From the NCBI GenBank assembly GCA_021295695.1, contig JAGWBW010000006.1, positions 4,483 through 68,482 on the forward strand: a DNA stretch of 64,000 nt, given 5' to 3'. Source of the DNA: Candidatus Latescibacterota bacterium (GTDB taxonomy: Bacteria; Latescibacterota; UBA2968). Both the position numbers and the translations under genes were made by a program. Under the pieces are notes generated by a model. It was not told the DNA's origin. It made no database searches and saw nothing but the letters and a program-made list of their open reading frames with translations. Shown here in pieces: positions 48,962-60,157 of the stretch; the stretch's first letter is position 1; each line of letters begins with the position of its first letter.

Positions 48962-50485
48962 ATGGCGCGAAGGCCCAATGTGTTGTGGTTGATGTCGGAT
49001 CAGCACAATGCCAATTGCGTGGGATTTGCCGAGCACCCAAATGTCCAGACCCCCAATATGGACCGCATTGCGGATGAGGGCGTGGTGTTTACACGAGCTT
49101 TTTGCAATAACCCAATTTGTTCACCGTCTCGGATCTGTTTTATGACCGGGCAGTATTGCCACACGCATCGGATGTTTGGCAATGATCATTCGGAGATTCC
49201 CGAAGCGAATCCCAATACGCTGGCGTGTCAGTTTCGGAGATACGGGTACCAAACGGCTGTGATTGGTAAGGCGCACATGGTTCGGCGCTGGGATGAAGAT
49301 GGTTTTGAGCGCATCCGATATACGGATTTGTGCGATGCGACGCACCTGGATCCAACCGAGACGCACTATTTCAAGTATCTGGAAGATCTGGGGTTATCGG
49401 ATTTTTACGAAGAAGGCTCGGCCAGACCCGGGCAGGAATATACGATGGATGGCAGTGCACCGGCCAAACTGCCATATCAGCATTCGATTGAGCATTATAC
49501 GGGCAATGAGTCGCTGGCGTTTTTGAAGGAGCGAGACGATGATCGGCCGTTTTTTTTGCAGATGAGTTTTCAAAGGCCCCATGCGCCGATTGCGCCTGCG
49601 GCAGAGCATTTTGATATGTACGATCCCGATGAGATAGTGTTGCCAGATAGTGCGGTTGATTATTTTGAGCACCGTTTTGCCGGCAAGCCCGAGTTTATGC
49701 AAAAGCGTTTGGCCGATGGGTGTGGATATCCGCTGGCCGATCCCAATCCCGATCGCTTGAAGCGCTGTTTGGCGAGTTATTACACGCTGATTTCGGCGAT
49801 TGATTCCGAGATTGGTCGGGTTCTGGATTATCTGGATGAGGTGGGGGAGTTGGAGAATACCGTGGTATTGTATTGCGCGGATCATGGTGATTTTGCAGGT
49901 GATCACGGGTTGTTTCACAAGAATTTTGGGATTTACGATTCGATTCACCGCATTCCTTTTGTACTGCGTTATCCAGGTGGACCCTCGGGCGCGACATGTG
50001 ATGCGATTGTCGAATCGGTTGATTGGTATCCCACATTGTGTCGGCTCTGCGATATTCCTGTTCCCGATGGGCGCGATGGGCGCGATTTGGTTCCGGTTGT
50101 GAATAGCAAGGCAGATGGTAAAGAAGCGGCATTTTGCGAGTGGGATTGGGGTAATCCCGGAGGCAAGGTGTCGGCGATTCGCACGCGCGATTTTCGGCTG
50201 GTGTTTTACGGGAGCCTGGATGAGGGAGAATTGTACGATCACCGCAATGATCCGGGTGAGATCGCAAATGTTTGGGCAGATCCAGAATATGCAGATGTGC
50301 GGTTTGATTTGCTCGCACAATTGATGCGGTTCACGTTGCAATATCGAACTGATACGGGGCGGTCGAGTCACGAGAGGGGTTTGAACAAGCGGTTTGCGCC
50401 GACTAATCTGGTTCACAAGGGCAGGCGGTATTGGCGCGATTTGAAAGAGGCATATACCAAACAAACAGTTTGGCCGCCGGAGTAA
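48962..50485 (+). CDS. Type I sulfatase
   Basis: A 507-residue alkaline-phosphatase-fold sulfatase. The formylglycine motif is CSPSR (C53), metal ligands are in MSDQHN (11-16) and CADHGDFAGDHGLFHK, and FGNDH lies near residue 75. There is no signal peptide, so it is expected to be cytoplasmic, acting on imported sulfated sugars or small sulfate esters. A formylglycine-generating enzyme is required but not seen here. AAAGGAG precedes the start. Its stop codon abuts the stop of the converging MFS gene with no spacer. Confidence 0.94.
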   Translation: MARRPNVLWLMSDQHNANCVGFAEHPNVQTPNMDRIADEGVVFTRAFCNNPICSPSRICFMTGQYCHTHRMFGNDHSEIPEANPNTLACQFRRYGYQTAVIGKAHMVRRWDEDGFERIRYTDLCDATHLDPTETHYFKYLEDLGLSDFYEEGSARPGQEYTMDGSAPAKLPYQHSIEHYTGNESLAFLKERDDDRPFFLQMSFQRPHAPIAPAAEHFDMYDPDEIVLPDSAVDYFEHRFAGKPEFMQKRLADGCGYPLADPNPDRLKRCLASYYTLISAIDSEIGRVLDYLDEVGELENTVVLYCADHGDFAGDHGLFHKNFGIYDSIHRIPFVLRYPGGPSGATCDAIVESVDWYPTLCRLCDIPVPDGRDGRDLVPVVNSKADGKEAAFCEWDWGNPGGKVSAIRTRDFRLVFYGSLDEGELYDHRNDPGEIANVWADPEYADVRFDLLAQLMRFTLQYRTDTGRSSHERGLNKRFAPTNLVHKGRRYWRDLKEAYTKQTVWPPE

Positions 50486-51634
50486 TTAACGCCTTGTGAT
50501 GGCGAGAATAACGATCAGACCGATAAAGAGACCGGGGATGACTGCGAAGCCCGCTTTCAGGCCAGCACTGTCTCCGATGACGCCCATGATCCAGGGGATG
50601 AGGCCAAATCCGGCAATGCCAAAGCAGGCGAGTACGACAAAGAGCATGGTGGTGTCAAAGGACAGGTGTTCCGCTGCTTCGGCGAGTATGGTGGGCCAGA
50701 AACAGGCGGTTGCAAATCCGGCGAAAAGGAGCAGAATATAAAATCCGATCAGGTTTTCGGAGAAGGGAATGCCGCTGCTGACGACGACACCGAGGATAGC
50801 GGAACCGAGCATCAGGGTTTTCAGGCGGATCATCTGGGACAATTTTGCGGAAAGCAAGCGGCCCAGAGCCATTGTGATGGCAAAGACGACGACTGCGATT
50901 GCGCCAGCGCGGGGCATGTCTTGTAGATAGGTTTCCACATAGCTGCGGCTCCAGAATATGAATGCCGCTTCGACACCTGCGCCCAAAAATATGGCGATGG
51001 CAAAGAGCCAGAATTTGGGCGTTTTGAGAATTTGTGCAATCAGGTGTTTGGACGATTGCTGATCTGATACGGGGATGGGAAAACGCGATAGGTGGAATAT
51101 GATGCCCATGAAAAGCGCGCCTACTGCAGCAATGCGGAATACGAGCTGCCAGGAATATCCGAGGGTCAGGAGTTCGCCAAAGAGGAGCGCGGAGACCATG
51201 ACGCCGACGGGGTAAAAGGCGTTGGTGATGTTGAGGTATTTGCCCGAGTCTTTGGGGTGAATGTCGATGATCAGGGGATTGATGAGGGCTTCGGTGAATC
51301 CGCCGCCAATGCCAGTGACCATGAGGGACAGGATGAGCATGGGGTAGCTGTCGGCATAGCTGATCATGAGAAGGCCGATGGCGAGGAGATATTGTCCCCA
51401 GATCACAAACTGTTTTTTGCCCCATTTGCGCGCGAGGATGCCAGACAGGATTAAGACGACGAGCAAAAGACATGTCCGCGCGGTTTCCAGACCGCCGCTT
51501 TCAGAGAGGGAGATGGACAGGGTTCTGGATATTTCGGGCAGGCATATTGGGGTGACGACACCACTGGTGGCAAACATCATAAACCCGCCCCAGCAGGCCA
51601 AATCAAGTCTGGTGAGTTCGGTTTTTTTACTCAA
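50486..51634 (-). CDS. MFS transporter next to sulfatases
   Basis: An inner-membrane transporter with about 12 helices (382 residues from the TTG at 51634). The first helix is LACWGGFMMFATSGVVTPI. GIGGGFTEALINPLIID and ALGRLLSAKLSQMIRLK correspond to MFS loops, and the fold resembles fucose/sugar permease-type MFS proteins. The TTG lies inside the last codons of the upstream sulfatase (CTTGAGTAA), so translation is coupled. A longer frame to 51769 is antisense-like and rejected. Sugar or sulfated-sugar uptake is a context-based guess. Confidence 0.75.
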   Translation of the reverse strand: MSKKTELTRLDLACWGGFMMFATSGVVTPICLPEISRTLSISLSESGGLETARTCLLLVVLILSGILARKWGKKQFVIWGQYLLAIGLLMISYADSYPMLILSLMVTGIGGGFTEALINPLIIDIHPKDSGKYLNITNAFYPVGVMVSALLFGELLTLGYSWQLVFRIAAVGALFMGIIFHLSRFPIPVSDQQSSKHLIAQILKTPKFWLFAIAIFLGAGVEAAFIFWSRSYVETYLQDMPRAGAIAVVVFAITMALGRLLSAKLSQMIRLKTLMLGSAILGVVVSSGIPFSENLIGFYILLLFAGFATACFWPTILAEAAEHLSFDTTMLFVVLACFGIAGFGLIPWIMGVIGDSAGLKAGFAVIPGLFIGLIVILAITRR

Positions 51635-53114
51635 GATAATCCATTTCGGGGCGCAATTCCCAGCGGATCGTATCTGTGGGTTTGGTATGGCGCGCCCAGG
51701 CTGTGAGGATGCGGGTGTCTCTGTTTCGGGCAGCGATCTGAGATGCGATGGCGTCGGGATCCCAGCCATCGAGGATGCGGGCGGTGAAATTTTTGATCAG
51801 GCTTTGACAAGTGAGGTCATTTGCGCGGTCGTGCAATTCGTTGGGGTCTTCTTTCAGGTTGAAGAGTTGACAGGGCTGATTGTGGTAGTAATTGAATTTC
51901 CATTTGTCCTGCCGAATCATGCGCTGGTACACGCCTTCGGCTGAGAAGGGACCGCCACCGCCTGCTCTATCCTGACAAAATTCGGAGAAGGCGAGGTTGT
52001 CCCAGGATGTGTTTTCGCCGCGCATCAAGGGCAGGAGTGAGCGTCCGCGAGAGTGGGGGAGTTCGGGGCATTGCAGGGCGTCGATCATGGTGGCGTTGAG
52101 ATCGACAGAAGAGATGACGTTGTCAAAGTGTTTGCCTTCGGGCAGGTGACCGGGCCAGGAGAGGATGGCGGGTACTTTGGCGGAGTGTTCGTAGAAGGTT
52201 TGTTTCCACCACAGGCCGTGTTCGCCAGCTTGTTCGCCGTGGTCTGACATGTAAATGACGAGGGTGTTTTCGAGCAATTCGTTTTGACGGAGGGCTGTAA
52301 GGATCTGCCCGATCATGTAATCCATGCGATCAACGAGTGCCCAGTATGCCGTGCGCGCGCGGTGGATTTCGGCTTCTGTGACGGTTGCAATGCCGCAGCG
52401 TTCGCGCCAGTGTTTGATGTGGGGATGCAGGTCGTCGGAGAAAGGGACAGAGATGGCGGGGGGCGGTACGCGACCATCGTAGCGTTTGTAGTCGGCGCGG
52501 CGCGCGACAAATGGCTGGTGGGGCAGCATAAAGCCAACGCTTAGAGAGAAGGGTTCTGCGGGTTGTCCAGCGCGTTTTTTTACGCCCAGGCGGTCGAGGT
52601 ATGCGACGGTTGCTGCGGTTACGTCTTCGTCGTGTACCTGATACGCACTTTGCCCGATACCCGATTTCGTCAGGCTGACGCGAGCGGGACCTGCTGTGCC
52701 GGAGAGCATCCCGTGGTTGACGCCGCCGCCACCGGAATGATTGGGTCCGTGATCGCCTACAAGGCGCTGGGCATATCCGTGTAGCTGATCTGGCCCGTTG
52801 GAATGCATGCGTCCTACAAGAACGGGGTCATAGCCTCCCGCGCCCATGGCATGGGCAAATGTGGGAATGCTCGAGTTGAGTATGTGCCCGTTTGTCCACA
52901 CTTCGTTTTCAAAGGGATAGCGCCCCGATAACATGGACATGCGCGAGGGTACGCATATCGGTGAGGGGCAGTAGCAGTTTTCAAATACAACGCCATTTGC
53001 CGCGAGGCTGTCGAGATGGGGGGTTTGAACGATTTTGTCTCCATAACAGCCCGTCACATAAGGATCGTGCTGGTCGGAGTGGATGTAGAGCAGGTTGGGT
53101 TTTGAATGTGCCAT
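51627..53114 (-). CDS. Type I sulfatase (choline-sulfatase/arylsulfatase-like)
   Basis: 495 residues. The formylglycine motif is CVPSR (C54), metal-binding sequence is LYIHSDQHDP (9-18), and YMSDHGEQAGEHGLWWKQT contains the Asp-His pair of the active site. There is no signal peptide, so it is cytoplasmic. The sequence is distinct from the plus-strand sulfatase 1 kb away, so the pair probably acts on different esters of the same substrate class. It overlaps the MFS gene by eight bases. AAAGGACAC precedes the ATG. Confidence 0.94.
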   Translation of the reverse strand: MAHSKPNLLYIHSDQHDPYVTGCYGDKIVQTPHLDSLAANGVVFENCYCPSPICVPSRMSMLSGRYPFENEVWTNGHILNSSIPTFAHAMGAGGYDPVLVGRMHSNGPDQLHGYAQRLVGDHGPNHSGGGGVNHGMLSGTAGPARVSLTKSGIGQSAYQVHDEDVTAATVAYLDRLGVKKRAGQPAEPFSLSVGFMLPHQPFVARRADYKRYDGRVPPPAISVPFSDDLHPHIKHWRERCGIATVTEAEIHRARTAYWALVDRMDYMIGQILTALRQNELLENTLVIYMSDHGEQAGEHGLWWKQTFYEHSAKVPAILSWPGHLPEGKHFDNVISSVDLNATMIDALQCPELPHSRGRSLLPLMRGENTSWDNLAFSEFCQDRAGGGGPFSAEGVYQRMIRQDKWKFNYYHNQPCQLFNLKEDPNELHDRANDLTCQSLIKNFTARILDGWDPDAIASQIAARNRDTRILTAWARHTKPTDTIRWELRPEMDYLE

Positions 53115-53128
53115 TGTGTGTCCTTTTT

Positions 53129-54196
53129 TTATTGCCGACTACCCGAGACCGGATAAAGGGTTAGTCGCGCTCTCTTCCCCGCGCCTTCATCGGAAACGAT
53201 TAGCGTGCCGTCCGCCGCGAAGGTAATACCTTCAACCTGACGATGCCATTGGGCGAGAAACTCTCTGACTGCAACGACCTTGCCCCCTGGCGTGATCTCC
53301 GCGATAGCTCCCTGACGGGCAGCTACGATAAAGTAATTTCCCGATATTGGATGTCGCTCGATTCCCGAAGGTTGAAATTTTTTTCCTTTGATATGCTGAG
53401 AGAATTCAGCGACAGGTATTATGGTATGTGCATCTACACTTAGTTGTTTCTCGTCAATTGACCAATGATATATTGCCAACTGTCCTTCCATGTCTGCGCT
53501 GCGAGCGTCCTTGCACATCAGTAAGAGTACCCGCTTGCTCTCGTCATACGCCAGGCCCTCTATTTCGCAATCTCTGCCGACCCCAGTCGTATAAACATTG
53601 AAGAGAACGGACTCGCCAGCAGTTCCCTCGCGAGACTCATATAGTCGCCCTGAACTCGTGACCAAATAGATCTGGTCGTCAATTGTTGCAATGCCCTCAA
53701 AATCACTGGCAACCGGGTTCTTCATGTCCGATAGTTGGAATGATTTTGCGATTGACCCATTCTGATAATCGATCTCGAAAATGACCCCTCTTTCATCATT
53801 GTGCGATAGGAGTCGGTTGTCTCGGGTCATTGCCAAACCTGAGATCTCCTCGAGATGCTCGGGAAGTTTCCAGTGCGTCGCGGTATCTTCGTTTAGTGTA
53901 TAGCTTTCGAGAGATATATTCCTTTGTAATACTGCCATTGTATCCGCCGAAGGGGTGATGATGGAAGTATCTGAAGCGGTATCTTCGTTTAGTGTATAGT
54001 TTTCGGGAGATATTTCTTCTTCTAATACCGCCATTGTGTCCGCTAAAGGGCGGACGGTCAGAGTATCAGGATCTGCGTTTGACGAATTCCCACTAAAATC
54101 TGAAGATGGATCTTTGCCAATGCCCATCGACAACAGGTAGAGCAAAATGCCAAAACCAAGGAAGCCCAGTAAAAATTTGTCTGTGTGATTCTTCAT
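53129..54196 (-). CDS. SdiA-regulated-type beta-propeller protein, exported
   Basis: 355 residues with an N-terminal membrane anchor (about 7-26, FLLGFLGFGILLYLLSMGIG), a low-complexity linker holding a 32-residue tandem duplication, and a propeller domain (about 110-350). Recognisable strands include EEISGLAMTRDNRLLSHND, SDFEGIATIDDQIYLVTSS and EIEGLAYDESKRVLLLMCKD. This is the SdiA-regulated (YjiK-like) family, related in fold to phytase-like and esterase-like propellers. It probably faces the periplasm. It is last in a three-gene operon, 16 bases after the DUF4956 gene. Confidence 0.8.
   Translation of the reverse strand: MKNHTDKFLLGFLGFGILLYLLSMGIGKDPSSDFSGNSSNADPDTLTVRPLADTMAVLEEEISPENYTLNEDTASDTSIITPSADTMAVLQRNISLESYTLNEDTATHWKLPEHLEEISGLAMTRDNRLLSHNDERGVIFEIDYQNGSIAKSFQLSDMKNPVASDFEGIATIDDQIYLVTSSGRLYESREGTAGESVLFNVYTTGVGRDCEIEGLAYDESKRVLLLMCKDARSADMEGQLAIYHWSIDEKQLSVDAHTIIPVAEFSQHIKGKKFQPSGIERHPISGNYFIVAARQGAIAEITPGGKVVAVREFLAQWHRQVEGITFAADGTLIVSDEGAGKRARLTLYPVSGSRQ
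53880..54071 (-). repeat. Tandem duplication of 96 bp in the propeller-protein linker
   Basis: Two copies with a 96-bp period (GCGGTATCTTCG at 53880 and 53976; CCGCCGAAGGGG / CCGCTAAAGGGC at 53944 and 54040) encode repeated ADTMAVL-x8-YTLNEDTA segments. It is in frame and recent enough to be obvious at the DNA level. Confidence 0.85.
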
Positions 54197-54212
54197 TTTA
54201 CAACCTTCAATT

Positions 54213-55142
54213 TTAAACTTTAGTCAGCGTTGCGTTTTGATATGCTTTTAAAATCGACTTTTTGCTCTTTTCAATATCCTGGATGAGGGAAGGCAGATCG
54301 ACGGATTGTTTTAACGAAACATCATACACAATGATGGTCGTTCCATCCTCTTTCTCGATCACGTCTGCTACCTGCCACTGGTTGGTTCCGGATTTCAGGA
54401 TTTGAGCTGTTGCTTTTTGCGCTGCTTTGACCTTCGTTGTATGTACTTCTATCCGAGCATAATAGGGATTTCCGGTGGTAATGGCCTTTGATCCAGAGGT
54501 CTGGGCTGAGTGATCAGGTGAAACAATTCTCCAGCCGGATAGTACTGGTGGTTGCGCGCCATAATTGGTTTTCCACACGCCCAGTGTTATGGTGACGAAA
54601 GCCAGCGATGCGATGTAGGCCACAGTCGTAAGCTGGGTGCCGGCCGCCAGCCCTATCCCGATGACCATAAACATGTACACGCCCTCTATGGTCGATTTGA
54701 GTGAGAGCCGAAAGGTGACAGCGGCCACGATACCCGCCAGACTGAACGCAAGGGCGAGACTACCCTTCACCAAAAAAACAACCAGTGAGATGGCGACAGG
54801 TATCACGAGCAGAGTTTGTACAAAGGATTGGCTGTATTTTTTGGACGAATGCGTCCAGGCATATACCCAGGTAATTGGGAGGGTAACCGCGAAGGCGAGT
54901 ACCAAAGCGACCACAACTGGAATCGTGTGTTCCGGATCGGCGAGCCGGTTTACCCCTTCTTTGATGTTTCCAAGCGGAACGGCCGCATCGACCCCGGAAT
55001 CAAAGGATGTTCCTACAAAGATGCGTTCACGCTCCTGGGCGACGTAATGGAGAATTTCGGGGAATATGTGAAAAATTGCGTTGAGAATCAAAAGCCAGGT
55101 GATATAGTAGATGGCGAGACGTATGATGATGTTGTTGAGCAT
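54213..55142 (-). CDS. DUF4956 membrane protein
   Basis: 309 residues. Helix 1 is at 6-28, a short external loop follows, and four helices lie at about 72-190. The family core AGIVAAVTFRLSLKSTIEGVY and MVIGIGLAAGTQLTTVAYIA identifies DUF4956. A cytoplasmic C-terminal domain (about 205-309) ends the protein. In many bacteria DUF4956 genes sit next to CotH-type kinases and VTC-like polyphosphate polymerases, which suggests a role in phosphotransfer or polyphosphate handling at the membrane. A very strong AAAGGAGG site precedes it, 18 bases after the kinase-barrel gene. Confidence 0.82.
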   Translation of the reverse strand: MLNNIIIRLAIYYITWLLILNAIFHIFPEILHYVAQERERIFVGTSFDSGVDAAVPLGNIKEGVNRLADPEHTIPVVVALVLAFAVTLPITWVYAWTHSSKKYSQSFVQTLLVIPVAISLVVFLVKGSLALAFSLAGIVAAVTFRLSLKSTIEGVYMFMVIGIGLAAGTQLTTVAYIASLAFVTITLGVWKTNYGAQPPVLSGWRIVSPDHSAQTSGSKAITTGNPYYARIEVHTTKVKAAQKATAQILKSGTNQWQVADVIEKEDGTTIIVYDVSLKQSVDLPSLIQDIEKSKKSILKAYQNATLTKV

Positions 55143-55160
55143 CGCATCCTCCTTTATTAG

Positions 55161-57872
55161 CTAAAACATAAAGCCAGCGCGCAGATATACGCCCGCCAAG
55201 TCATCGCCTTTTACGATTGCCGCGCTCAAGGTCTGCTGGCGCTGGAGAAAAGACAGCCAGAATCCACCTCCGATACTGTTGTGCCATTTATCTGCATTGT
55301 CCGGATCTCCGTCATAAATCACCCGGCCAGCATCGGCCGCACCGAACACGCCCAACTCTCCCAACACCAGAAGCTTGATTTTTGTCAGAACCAGTCGCAG
55401 TTCGGAATTTCCATACAGCGCAGTCTCTCCAGCGAACCGGTTTTTCCGGAAACCGCGCAAATTGCCACTGGATATGCCACCGCCGACAAAACCAGATCCG
55501 CCCAGAAAGGCACTCTCGTGGAAGGGAAAGGTTCCCCACACCTTCTTGCCACCCGCTCTTAAGACAAGGGTCGGGGTGGTCGGAATAGGAGCAGTCAGGT
55601 AAGTACTGGCTGCCCCATCTATACTACCAAAGGTCGATTCTACATCCCAGACTCCTGGATAGATGTCTCCGGCAACCCTGACCCTGACCCCCTGAGTGGG
55701 ATACCCTAAACTGTTGCGCGTGTCGTACACGACTTCACCCAGTGCGCCTACCTGACCAAAGGAATCCGTACCGTACAGTGGGTGATCGCGCGAACCGATA
55801 TATTTTTCACTGTTGGAACTGAAGGGTGTGTTTGAATACTTGATAATCGGCCCAAAGTCAATGGTTAATTTCGAGCGAAGCGATCCCATACCAACATGAG
55901 GCATATCTCCTTTATAATCTCCCGCTCGAAATTCGAGGGCCGGTGCGAAAACGAAATGATTTTGTTCCACCTTATAAAAGGAAGACGGCTCAGGAATTTC
56001 TGTTTTGTTACCGAATCCGTTGAACCGGATTATCTGGATTCCGGAGTACTTTAAGTAGATTCTCGCGTCGAAGTCGCGCATGAATTCGCGAAAGTTTCCG
56101 GTATAGGAGGCAAAGAGCTTGATTCCCTCGAGATCATTGTCTTTCGCCAGTCCGATCTTAAAAAAGTGTTGCGAAGAAAAAGGGTCTTTTCGATAGCCGA
56201 AATACTGTCGATGGTAGGTCATACCCAAGAATACATCGAGATCCGGATTTACCCTGATAATCGGAGCAGTGGCAGTCTGTCCGCCCCAATCCAGTGCATA
56301 TCTCGCACGGAGAAGCCGCGCGGGAGGACGCTTGTAGGGTCGTTCGTCGATTTTCGCGCCCTTGCCTTTGGCGAACTGATTTTTTCTACGATAATCATAA
56401 AACCGGATCTTTGAACCAGCAGATGAGTTTGTAAGTGTGTCATCCCCACCGCCACCATCAATGCGAACGACAATCTGTCCCTTTGTCCCCGATATTTCCG
56501 CACGGTCATCCCCGCCCCGGAGATATATTCGGACTTCCCTGGTTTCCTGGGGATGGAAAGTTCTTTGGAAATAGGGTGTCTTCTTTTTTTCTCCAGTACC
56601 TTCCCTTAGACCGATACGGACCAGGAGATCGCCGCTCGGCAGGTGTTCACACTGGGCGTACTCGTCCTTATCGGTCGCCTGGATTTCGACCTGGTGGGTA
56701 ATCAATTCATAGTATCTGCTGGCAAAATCAGGCAATGCGTCCCGCCTCGATTTGAGGGCTTGTGTAAGCGTTTCTCCGATCATCTTGTAATACGGTGGTG
56801 GAAGCCTCCGCACGGCATCCTCGATAACCTGGTCGGGCAGGTCATTGCAAAACGCCGTTACTACTGAATCCCAGGTGCTCTTATTGAGTTCGGACAGAAA
56901 CTCGCGGTCCATCTCCCAACCAGTGGTCGATAGGCCTACCAGGCTCGGATATTCGTCTTCGAATTTGATTTGTCTGGGGAGTCTTTTGCGTGCCATTGCC
57001 ATAGCAAATCCCTTGAAGCCGATAAAAGCCTGGTCGCGGTCTTCGGGTATTGGAAGCCATGTATAACAATCGCCATCGGGGAATTGCGCCCACCTCCACT
57101 GGCCGTAATGGCGGTCCTTGTCGCCGATAAAAAGATCCATCAGTTTTGCTTTTAGATAGGCACGGGCATCGATGCGGTTGCAGGGACTTTCTTCAAGGTG
57201 TTCCCACAGCCTCTCCGTTCCGCTGACCCTCCGGGAACCCGCAAAGCCGGGTGTATCGTCCGGCCCTTCAGACGGGTGTTCTTGCAGCGTTCCGATAAGG
57301 CCGGCAAACTCTTTGCGGTACTCTCCCAGCCTTGGATCATCCGGAATGACTACGAGCGTATGTTTGGAATGGAGAATACCAGTGGCTTCCATAAGCGGAT
57401 CAGCCACGAGTGCCCCTGTTGGTAAAAGCGCGCTGATCAAGTCCTGAAGGACGTCATCTACAATGGAATCCTTGAGTTCATCCCATATTCTTTTGGTGGG
57501 ATCTTTATCCAGGGAACGAACCGTATAGCGGCGGCCGTCTTTCCCTGTAAAGTGAAGCGAGATGGACTGCCCGAATCCGCCGGTGCGAAGCGGTGTCAAG
57601 CCACCTCCTACTTTGTCGAGGTCGAGGACGGCAACCTCGATAGGGGTAGTCCAGAGGTCCCGGTTATTGCTGCCGTAGAACCAGCGTTTGAACCCGCCAG
57701 CCCGGAACCTTTCCCCTGGAACCACCATGTGGGTTCTGGCTCCCTGCGGAGGAATAGATCGGTGAATCCTGTGCCCTGGAGCAGGTGAATCCTCATCAGG
57801 TGTGGATTCTATCGGAACAGAAAAAGCGAGCACCAACAAGAATAAAATAGCGTTCTGTTTGGGAAATACCAT
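55161..57872 (-). CDS. Atypical-kinase-like domain fused to an outer-membrane beta-barrel
   Basis: 903 residues. A signal peptide (about 1-23) precedes a region of about 60-400 with GKDGRRYTVRSLDKDP (possible nucleotide-binding beta hairpin), LFIGDKDRHYGQWRW (D253-H255, catalytic-loop-like) and PIPEDRDQAF (278-283, metal-binding Asp pair). These resemble FAM20/CotH/HipA-type atypical kinases. A short Gly/Asp segment (IDGGGGDDTL, about 480) recalls calcium-binding rolls. The last 350 residues form an Omp85-like barrel with LRGFRKNRFAG and a terminal Phe (YLRAGFMF). First gene of the DUF4956 operon. Activity is inferred from motifs only. Confidence 0.75.
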   Translation of the reverse strand: MVFPKQNAILFLLVLAFSVPIESTPDEDSPAPGHRIHRSIPPQGARTHMVVPGERFRAGGFKRWFYGSNNRDLWTTPIEVAVLDLDKVGGGLTPLRTGGFGQSISLHFTGKDGRRYTVRSLDKDPTKRIWDELKDSIVDDVLQDLISALLPTGALVADPLMEATGILHSKHTLVVIPDDPRLGEYRKEFAGLIGTLQEHPSEGPDDTPGFAGSRRVSGTERLWEHLEESPCNRIDARAYLKAKLMDLFIGDKDRHYGQWRWAQFPDGDCYTWLPIPEDRDQAFIGFKGFAMAMARKRLPRQIKFEDEYPSLVGLSTTGWEMDREFLSELNKSTWDSVVTAFCNDLPDQVIEDAVRRLPPPYYKMIGETLTQALKSRRDALPDFASRYYELITHQVEIQATDKDEYAQCEHLPSGDLLVRIGLREGTGEKKKTPYFQRTFHPQETREVRIYLRGGDDRAEISGTKGQIVVRIDGGGGDDTLTNSSAGSKIRFYDYRRKNQFAKGKGAKIDERPYKRPPARLLRARYALDWGGQTATAPIIRVNPDLDVFLGMTYHRQYFGYRKDPFSSQHFFKIGLAKDNDLEGIKLFASYTGNFREFMRDFDARIYLKYSGIQIIRFNGFGNKTEIPEPSSFYKVEQNHFVFAPALEFRAGDYKGDMPHVGMGSLRSKLTIDFGPIIKYSNTPFSSNSEKYIGSRDHPLYGTDSFGQVGALGEVVYDTRNSLGYPTQGVRVRVAGDIYPGVWDVESTFGSIDGAASTYLTAPIPTTPTLVLRAGGKKVWGTFPFHESAFLGGSGFVGGGISSGNLRGFRKNRFAGETALYGNSELRLVLTKIKLLVLGELGVFGAADAGRVIYDGDPDNADKWHNSIGGGFWLSFLQRQQTLSAAIVKGDDLAGVYLRAGFMF

Positions 57873-57925: not shown

Positions 57926-60157
57926 TCAAAATGCATATCCGACTGCGGTATAAATCTCGATATCTTTTTTTTCTGTGCTCACAATATCAATGCGAATGGG
58001 GCCTAAAAACGTTGTGCTGATATAACCACCAATACCAAAGCCGTGAATACGGGTATTTGGCTGATCCGGATTGTTGTACAGACCGCCCTGATAAAAAATT
58101 CCGACAGCACTGAGCGGTATGGCTCCCCAAAATTTCTTGTGGCTCCAAATAGAAATGCCCGCCGATACGAACCTGGGAACTCTCAGTTCATCTCGTTGAA
58201 GACCGACAACGCGCAATGCTGCGTTACTAAAGTGTCCTGCACCACCTAATGCGAAGTGTTCATAAATCGGCGCGGACTGTGTCATATAGCCTCCGTGAGA
58301 CCAGAGGCCCACACTCAATTGCGGATGGGGGCTGGCGAAGTACGCGAGTTGTGTTTGCACCTGCTTATGTGAAAAAGTCCGATGAACCCATTTTGCTTGC
58401 GTTTGAAAATAGATGCCGTGTCTTGTCAAAAACGCGTCGTCTCGCGTGTCAATACCTGCGGATAACCACAAGGCGGGCAGATCTTTAGACGCATTGCCTA
58501 TTGAACTGTCCGCATCGCGAATGCGGACATGCTCGACTTGATACCCCACTTTGAAACCTCCCCAACTGTGGAACAAAACCTGCATGCCCAATCGCGCGCG
58601 AAAACGCTTCTCGTTATACGCGTCCTGGCGTTGCCCATTTTGAAAATACAACCGGTCTTGATTCCAACCTTGAATCTGCCCAAGGAAACCCAGGCGCTTG
58701 GATGAGCGAAAAATTAAATCCATTTCAGCAAAATTCAAATTGCCCAACAGACCGCGAAAATAAAACTCTGCTACGGGGCCATAAGCATTTTGATGTGCAA
58801 GCTCGGTCAGTGCCGAAACCCCAAAATCATTGTCGTAATGAAGTCCTATTTTCAGCTCACTGGGGGGGTTTTCAAGCACCTGAAAAACCAATTCGGTATA
58901 GTTTTCATGGTAGATGACTTCGTAATCTACCGTTTGAAATAATCCGGTCGCATAGAACCGGCCAGATTCGTTTTCCAGTTTCCGGAACGATATCGGCTTG
59001 TTCACAAACTTTTCCAATCGCGATGTAAATACCTCTTGTGAATAGCGCTCTAAACCCTCAATTCGCACCCGGTCAATTACAATATCCGATGGTATATCTA
59101 CCCAGGTTCTGAAATCAAAATCATCTGGTAATATTGACGGTCTCGACTTTTCAACGCGTTTTGAAATTCCGAGTGTTTGCAGGGCCTTCCAGATCGCATC
59201 TATATGTTTTTCGGCTTCTTTTTCGCCAATTGGGATTAAGGTATATGACAGATTAAAATCGCCACCATCAAATTTTTTTAAATCAGGGGTTATCAGCACA
59301 TGGGCACGTTTTCGATTTGCAATTTTTTTTTCTTCAATTCGAAAACTAACAGCTTGATCTATGACGTCGATGATATCTTCAATTTCGTGCTTTTGGGTGC
59401 GCAAAGGCGTGGCACAATCCACGGCAATAACAAAATCAGCACCAGCGTCTAATGCGACATCTACAGGCAGATTATTGACAATGCCGCCATCGACGAGATG
59501 GGTTTGTTCTGTGCTTATCGGCGCAAATACCCCGGGAACAGAAATACTCGCTCTGATTGCCGTGCCGAGCGAGCCATTTTTAATCACGACCTGTTCGCCA
59601 GATAAAATATCTGTTGCTATTGCGCGAAAAGGCGTTGAGAGCCGATCAAAATCGTTTCTCGCCCGATAAATTGCGCCAAGGGTCAATTGATTGAGAAAAT
59701 GCTGAATTTTTTGTCCGGCAAAAACCCCATAGGGCAATTTCAGGTTCAGTTTATCGAGGCGCAATGCAAGCATCTGGCGATCAGCTATTGGTTTGCGATT
59801 CAAATTCGACAGACGGCGGTTGGGGCTATTGTTGGTTATTTCCCACCAGTCTGTTCCCACAATAATGCGTTCGACATTATCAACAGAGTATCCGGCAGCG
59901 TACAGGCCGCCCACCAGAGCGCCATAACTCACGCCCACGACCAAATCAATGGGTATGCCTTCGCGCTCGAGCACGCGCAATACGCCGATATGTGCCCCTC
60001 CACGCGCGCCTCCTCCACTGAGCACGAGTGCGACTCGGGGCTTCTGTTGTGCAAAAGAAGGCAGCGTGATAGACAAGGCAAAACCGAAACAGAAGACAAA
60101 AACAAACAGGCTTTGAACTATTCTGCATTTGGTTGCATATAACTTTTTGTCCGTCAT
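57926..60157 (-). CDS. Patatin-like phospholipase with POTRA and outer-membrane barrel (PlpD-like)
   Basis: 743 residues. A signal peptide (about 15-36, ending SFAQ) precedes a patatin domain (40-260) with the oxyanion loop SGGGARGG (47-54), nucleophile GVSYG (S77) and the catalytic Asp in VDGGIVNNLP (about 221). A POTRA-like domain (about 310-385, VRIEGLERYSQEVFTSRLEKF) leads to a 16-strand Omp85 barrel (390-743) ending IYTAVGYAF. This is the type Vd secretion architecture of PlpD/FplA, in which the lipase is exposed or exported. Here it sits beside the kinase-barrel operon but 53 bases upstream of it. Confidence 0.88.
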   Translation of the reverse strand: MTDKKLYATKCRIVQSLFVFVFCFGFALSITLPSFAQQKPRVALVLSGGGARGGAHIGVLRVLEREGIPIDLVVGVSYGALVGGLYAAGYSVDNVERIIVGTDWWEITNNSPNRRLSNLNRKPIADRQMLALRLDKLNLKLPYGVFAGQKIQHFLNQLTLGAIYRARNDFDRLSTPFRAIATDILSGEQVVIKNGSLGTAIRASISVPGVFAPISTEQTHLVDGGIVNNLPVDVALDAGADFVIAVDCATPLRTQKHEIEDIIDVIDQAVSFRIEEKKIANRKRAHVLITPDLKKFDGGDFNLSYTLIPIGEKEAEKHIDAIWKALQTLGISKRVEKSRPSILPDDFDFRTWVDIPSDIVIDRVRIEGLERYSQEVFTSRLEKFVNKPISFRKLENESGRFYATGLFQTVDYEVIYHENYTELVFQVLENPPSELKIGLHYDNDFGVSALTELAHQNAYGPVAEFYFRGLLGNLNFAEMDLIFRSSKRLGFLGQIQGWNQDRLYFQNGQRQDAYNEKRFRARLGMQVLFHSWGGFKVGYQVEHVRIRDADSSIGNASKDLPALWLSAGIDTRDDAFLTRHGIYFQTQAKWVHRTFSHKQVQTQLAYFASPHPQLSVGLWSHGGYMTQSAPIYEHFALGGAGHFSNAALRVVGLQRDELRVPRFVSAGISIWSHKKFWGAIPLSAVGIFYQGGLYNNPDQPNTRIHGFGIGGYISTTFLGPIRIDIVSTEKKDIEIYTAVGYAF

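Follow-up and report, generated by a model that had tools for sequence, protein, structure and literature searches.

Bacterial phosphorylation outside the cytosol is poorly understood, above all with respect to the origin of the phosphate donor. The described systems closest to the one analyzed here are the kinase-fold families HipA/CtkA, CotH, the eukaryotic Golgi casein kinase FAM20C, which acts outside the cytosol, and the lipopolysaccharide heptose kinase WaaP, which has an envelope substrate; to these come the Omp85 outer-membrane proteins (BamA, TamA and the PlpD type) and the propeller protein YjiK, for which we know of no function. Here we analyze a 64,000-nucleotide stretch of contig JAGWBW010000006.1 from a Candidatus Latescibacterota bacterium, below called the window, in which three genes encode a kinase-like domain fused to an Omp85-type barrel (a protein that we name KINB), a DUF4956 membrane protein and an SdiA-regulated propeller. 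Genes for CotH, a polyphosphate polymerase and DUF4956 have been found clustered beside Pel clusters (PMC7112168), and an initial annotation of the window had proposed a surface phosphotransfer or polyphosphate-linked system with the propeller as phosphatase or sensor. No description of a barrel-linked kinase of the KINB type was found in the open-access literature searched, in which the family appears to be undescribed.

Predicted fold and catalytic residues of KINB

Searched by sequence against Pfam, NCBIfam and the PDB, the N-terminal domain of KINB matched no kinase, and no Pfam family was found in residues 35-520 of any of 63 relatives; kinases were matched only by the fold. These residues were modelled with AlphaFold2 from an alignment of 63 homologues at a mean pLDDT of 91.8 and a pTM of 0.92. 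Searching the model with Foldseek produced 16 PDB matches at E <= 1e-3, the leading ones all kinases, with five CtkA chains first, followed by PI4KII-alpha, CotH, FAM20C and WaaP. The best match was CtkA of the HipA group (3akk, E 4.6e-6, probability 1.00). In the predicted structure the region around the DRH and DRDQ motifs is a two-lobed kinase-like fold of remote relation to known kinases, which bears out the initial annotation, and FAM20C, CotH and HipA (the last through CtkA of its group), which it had named for comparison, are all represented among the matches.

Comparison with each family shows likeness in fold and distance in sequence. KINB shares a GxxDRHxx[NQ]W loop and a later DFG-type Asp with two HipA_C (PF07804) proteins of the same genome (by motif, GDKDRHYGQW in KINB against GNTDRHHENW and GNNDRHHYNW), but HipA_C gave no match above threshold in the 63 KINB members, one of them reaching E 0.24, and KINB differs from HipA in being exported, fused to an outer-membrane barrel and not one of a toxin-antitoxin pair. 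CotH (PF08757; 5jd9, E 7.7e-5) is, like KINB, an exported kinase-fold protein with DUF4956 as a neighbour (PMC7112168), but only one of the 63 members matched it, at E 0.005, the profile-profile probability was 0.2 percent, and KINB is barrel-anchored in a genome where no VTC polymerase was found. FAM20C (4kqb, E 1.9e-4) has no Pfam or PDB sequence-level match with KINB and is a eukaryotic protein with neither a barrel nor a fused phosphatase. WaaP (6dfl, E 6.4e-4) likewise has no sequence match with KINB, and it is cytosolic, unlike KINB as placed below.

Since the sequence of KINB is remote from all kinase families, the fold might serve another transfer, for example adenylylation or glutamylation, and the metallophosphoesterase described below could also cleave phosphodiesters. 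Such chemistry is carried out by SelO, a kinase-fold protein that AMPylates. SidJ is reported to be a pseudokinase that polyglutamylates (PMC6858067). We consider this improbable for KINB, since its catalytic loop matches that of HipA_C, a kinase family, and the leading Foldseek matches are ordinary kinases and not SelO or SidJ.

In the model a helix is followed by DRH, two strands and EDRDQAF, an order that fits a catalytic loop and then a DFG-type Asp. Both D253 of DRH and D278 of DRDQAF are present as first described (Table 1), and the motifs flanking them are nearly invariant across several phyla in an alignment of 67 KINB homologues. R254 is conserved in 65/67 and R119 and K123 in 66/67 each; D144 is also conserved, and R119, K123 and D144 are candidates for the beta3 Lys and alphaC acidic roles. 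The full-length architecture of KINB is conserved among its relatives. At about residues 452-490 (window about 56400-56520) the linker behind the kinase-like domain carries an RTX-like nonapeptide, GGGGDDTLT, preceded by GGDDRAEI, a possible calcium site.

The C-terminus of KINB is a barrel of the Omp85 superfamily: its own PF01103 score is 23.8 bits on residues 710-851, just under the Pfam cut-off of 24, and relatives pass this cut-off with 36.8, 27.3 and 44.1 bits. The NCBIfam model Omp85_fam matches residues 714-903 with E 1e-18, which is below that model's cut-off. Pfam detected no POTRA domain on KINB, where the kinase-like domain instead takes the N-terminal position. It is established that Omp85 proteins carry their N-terminal domains on the periplasmic side. 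By analogy we infer that the kinase domain of KINB, being N-terminal to such a barrel, is periplasmic, and the surface location first proposed is unlikely.

Recurrence of the gene association and the phosphoesterase partner

Only two DUF4956 genes are present in the genome of the window, both in the order KINB-DUF4956-propeller. This order recurs across several phyla, and the association can therefore not be ascribed to chance; the three genes are found together in Latescibacterota, Poribacteria, KSB1, Acidobacteria, Gemmatimonadota and Calditrichia, a recurrence that the initial annotation had asked for. A scan of species genomes gave 74 KINB loci, spanning the groups just named as well as one proteobacterial bin and Aminicenantes (group names follow the record titles); Bacteroidota were sampled solely via plasmid records. 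DUF4956 is found in 44 of these loci and the propeller in 40, and the loci bearing them fall in the 46-row clade of the KINB tree. No DUF4956 was found at any locus of the 17-row outgroup clade, and the single propeller record of that clade (L146) is on a contig also bearing a main-clade copy. Among 60 genomes DUF4956 was present in 22/22 with the kinase domain versus 6/38 without it, counts which, like those of loci, are not independent, as many close relatives are included. Shorter forms of DUF4956, with VTC, CotH or HlyD-like genes next to them, account for some of the proteins of those six genomes and for additional copies. Two KINB genes occur in tandem or around the module at five loci (L107, L111, L118, L119 and L146) from Poribacteria, Gemmatimonadota and KSB1.

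A feature missed by the initial annotation is a calcineurin-like phosphoesterase (PF00149), encoded near KINB in 23/74 loci. It is placed after the propeller gene, convergently between KINB and the propeller gene, upstream of a solo KINB gene, downstream or divergently. Since a genome holds 3-16 PF00149 matches, chance proximity at 23 of the loci is unlikely, and since the presence of the gene changes 7 times on the KINB tree, its gain or loss has been a repeated event. In Persicobacter sp. JZB09 a single protein of 1214 residues consists of phosphoesterase, kinase domain and barrel, and the product of the reading frame just upstream, which slightly overlaps the fusion gene, is a propeller belonging to the family seen in the window (PF06977; profile E about 1e-25). 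Hymenobacter radiodurans also has a phosphoesterase-kinase-barrel fusion, with a degenerate catalytic loop. Such a Rosetta-stone fusion is the strongest sign that a phosphatase and the kinase-like domain may act in one process, and the metallophosphoesterase is the likely phosphatase partner of KINB, as predicted from these gene arrangements. We found no evidence for the propeller as phosphatase; the separate metallophosphoesterase is the likelier candidate.

Gene layout, DUF4956 and the propeller

The three reading frames of the module lie exactly where they were first placed, with gaps of 18 bases (KINB/DUF4956) and 16 bases (DUF4956/propeller). Their ribosome sites had all been called strong, which suits that of the DUF4956 gene, while that of the propeller gene is just moderate; AAAGGA precedes the KINB start. 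The patatin-POTRA-Omp85 gene upstream (Table 1) is the neighbour of KINB in the majority of genomes from the genus and also in one other family of the order, and together with the co-directional sulfatase gene downstream it may belong to a longer operon. Promoter and terminator scans performed no better than on shuffled sequences, so the ends of the operon are not defined. A second sulfatase gene (48962-50485, plus strand) and an MFS gene also lie beside the module; the adjacency of these and the first sulfatase is conserved only within the genus.

Table 1 Features of the KINB locus in window coordinates.
Feature	Position	Strand	Basis
KINB (name coined here), 903 aa	57872-55161	-	Reading frame: signal peptide, kinase-like domain, small beta linker, Omp85-type barrel
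Kinase-like domain, about residues 46-395 (approximate)	56688..57737	-	AlphaFold2 and Foldseek
D253, predicted catalytic-loop Asp of IGDKDRHYGQW	57114..57116	-	D in 64/67 homologues; motif match to HipA_C proteins
D278, predicted DFG-type Asp of PEDRDQAF	57039..57041	-	D in 67/67; after two strands following the catalytic loop
Beta-rich linker, about residues 396-510 (approximate)	56343..56687	-	Model strands; one RTX-like GGGGDDTLT
Omp85-type barrel, about residues 525-903 (boundary approximate)	55164..56300	-	PF01103, NCBIfam Omp85_fam
Ribosome site AAAGGAGG of DUF4956 gene	55148..55155	-	Strong; read from sequence ahead of ATG
DUF4956 membrane protein, 309 aa	55142-54213	-	PF16316; long form with C-terminal soluble domain
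Ribosome site GAAGG of propeller gene	54204..54208	-	Moderate; read from sequence ahead of ATG
Propeller protein, 355 aa	54196-53129	-	N-terminal hydrophobic anchor, then SdiA-regulated/Phytase-like propeller
Patatin-POTRA-Omp85 gene	57926-60157	-	53 bases upstream of KINB; POTRA match weak; profile search
Sulfatase gene	51627-53114	-	14 bases downstream of propeller gene, co-directional

Both partner proteins were correctly named at the outset. The DUF4956 protein matches PF16316 with 43.7 bits (cut-off 30.6). It is an inner-membrane protein with a soluble C-terminal domain; its low-confidence model (pLDDT 59.4) contains at least six long helices, and the C-terminal domain is modelled as mixed alpha/beta. 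It is a long form owing to this extra domain, compared with the open frames of 227-255 aa beside VTC. The DUF4956 profile matched no solved structure. An MgtC/ACT-like relationship was considered and is not claimed; a weak MgtC match (E 0.0027) was seen in one VTC-type relative. At two loci of the convergent arrangement a further gene lies beside the DUF4956 gene: the product of L131:13925-15223 matches SBP_bac_3 just over the cut-off, and that of L135:13915-15150 resembles it by position only. A short DUF4956 gene at L172:7698-8381 (minus strand) adjoins one for a 439-aa protein that matches no Pfam family, and no KINB match was found in the stretch examined.

The propeller scores above the Pfam cut-offs of three families, Phytase-like, Mala_s_1-like and SdiA-regulated (PF13449, PF22701 and PF06977), with 40.5, 40.6 and 27.2 bits against 27.6, 27.5 and 21, respectively, and its profile matches YjiK (3qqz, E 1e-6). 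Unlike YjiK it has an N-terminal membrane anchor and a fixed linkage to KINB and DUF4956. As read from the sequence, the hydrophobic N-terminal stretch has no evident cleavage site and probably anchors the protein in the inner membrane, on the periplasmic side.

The initial annotation had linked the module to polyphosphate, and DUF4956 and the kinase-like protein could in principle make, export or use this polymer. The neighbourhood of DUF4956 with VTC polymerase and CotH genes, on which the proposal was built, is real both elsewhere (PMC7112168) and in the phylum of the window, and DUF4956 and VTC matches occur in the same 3/14 control genomes. However, the lack of a VTC polymerase noted for the window extends to the whole genome, where neither VTC nor CotH was found (in an assembly that is 94% complete, so the absence is not absolute), the DUF4956 of the module is the long form and not the one seen beside VTC, and distant KINB relatives have no DUF4956 nearby. 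We thus found no support for polyphosphate chemistry in this module and give the idea little credence.

A proposed tethered envelope kinase and the pseudokinase alternative

The reading we prefer, with a probability of roughly 0.55, is that the KINB module is a periplasm-facing, outer-membrane-tethered kinase/phosphatase system of an uncharacterised kind, as predicted from the model and the gene arrangements, and that its kinase-fold enzyme is probably active. Independent precedent comes from the clustering of DUF4956 with another kinase-fold protein, CotH (PMC7112168; same phylum).

Several observations weigh against this reading. The TM-scores of the CtkA match are low (0.35 on the query and 0.54 on the target), for which reason the kinship to kinases must be called remote. 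The metal-binding Asn position after the catalytic Asp is a Gln in 64/67 KINB homologues, and D253 itself is replaced by Gly, Asn or Ser in three Bacteroidota plasmid copies from Hymenobacter and Parabacteroides (L178, L180 and L181). The DUF4956 model is poor and unfit for a fold search. No phosphoesterase gene lies beside the KINB locus of the window, and the phosphoesterase of locus L131 found no sequence match in the genome of the window in a search lacking a positive control; 16 PF00149 matches were found elsewhere in that genome by profile search. Finally, ATP is scarce in the periplasm.

Some of these points agree with a KINB domain that has lost the transfer reaction and serves, in place of POTRA, as a ligand-binding or scaffold domain of an Omp85-type assembly or transport barrel. 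The three plasmid copies devoid of the catalytic Asp retain the residues conserved fold-wide and look like natural pseudokinases, the Asn to Gln exchange points the same way, and no phosphate donor is known in the periplasm. For the family as a whole this appears rather unlikely, since D253 is otherwise retained, D278 is invariant, the flanking motifs hardly vary across several phyla, and a phosphatase partner recurs, even fused to the kinase-like domain.

If KINB is an active tethered kinase, its kinase domain would be held at the outer membrane by the Omp85-type barrel, facing the periplasm, and would transfer phosphate from some donor to an envelope substrate, where a protein and a glycan or lipid (as for WaaP) are equally open. 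The metallophosphoesterase, encoded separately in some relatives and fused in some Bacteroidota, would reverse the transfer. From its place at the periplasmic face of the inner membrane the propeller may sense or recruit, and DUF4956 may act within that membrane as supplier or regulator. More speculatively, and with clearly less confidence, the module could constitute an undescribed reversible phosphorylation of the Gram-negative envelope, where a tethered kinase is opposed by a dedicated, sometimes fused, phosphatase and DUF4956 is a donor provider in the inner membrane, shared with CotH systems.

The results suggest that DUF4956 is not dedicated to one exported kinase but is shared by unrelated ones, and that a widespread kinase-barrel family with a phosphatase may perform an undescribed on/off phosphate switching in the cell envelope. 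For the study of phosphorylation outside the cytosol the KINB family offers definite proteins and residues to work with, as well as relatives that can be cultured (Persicobacter and Hymenobacter).

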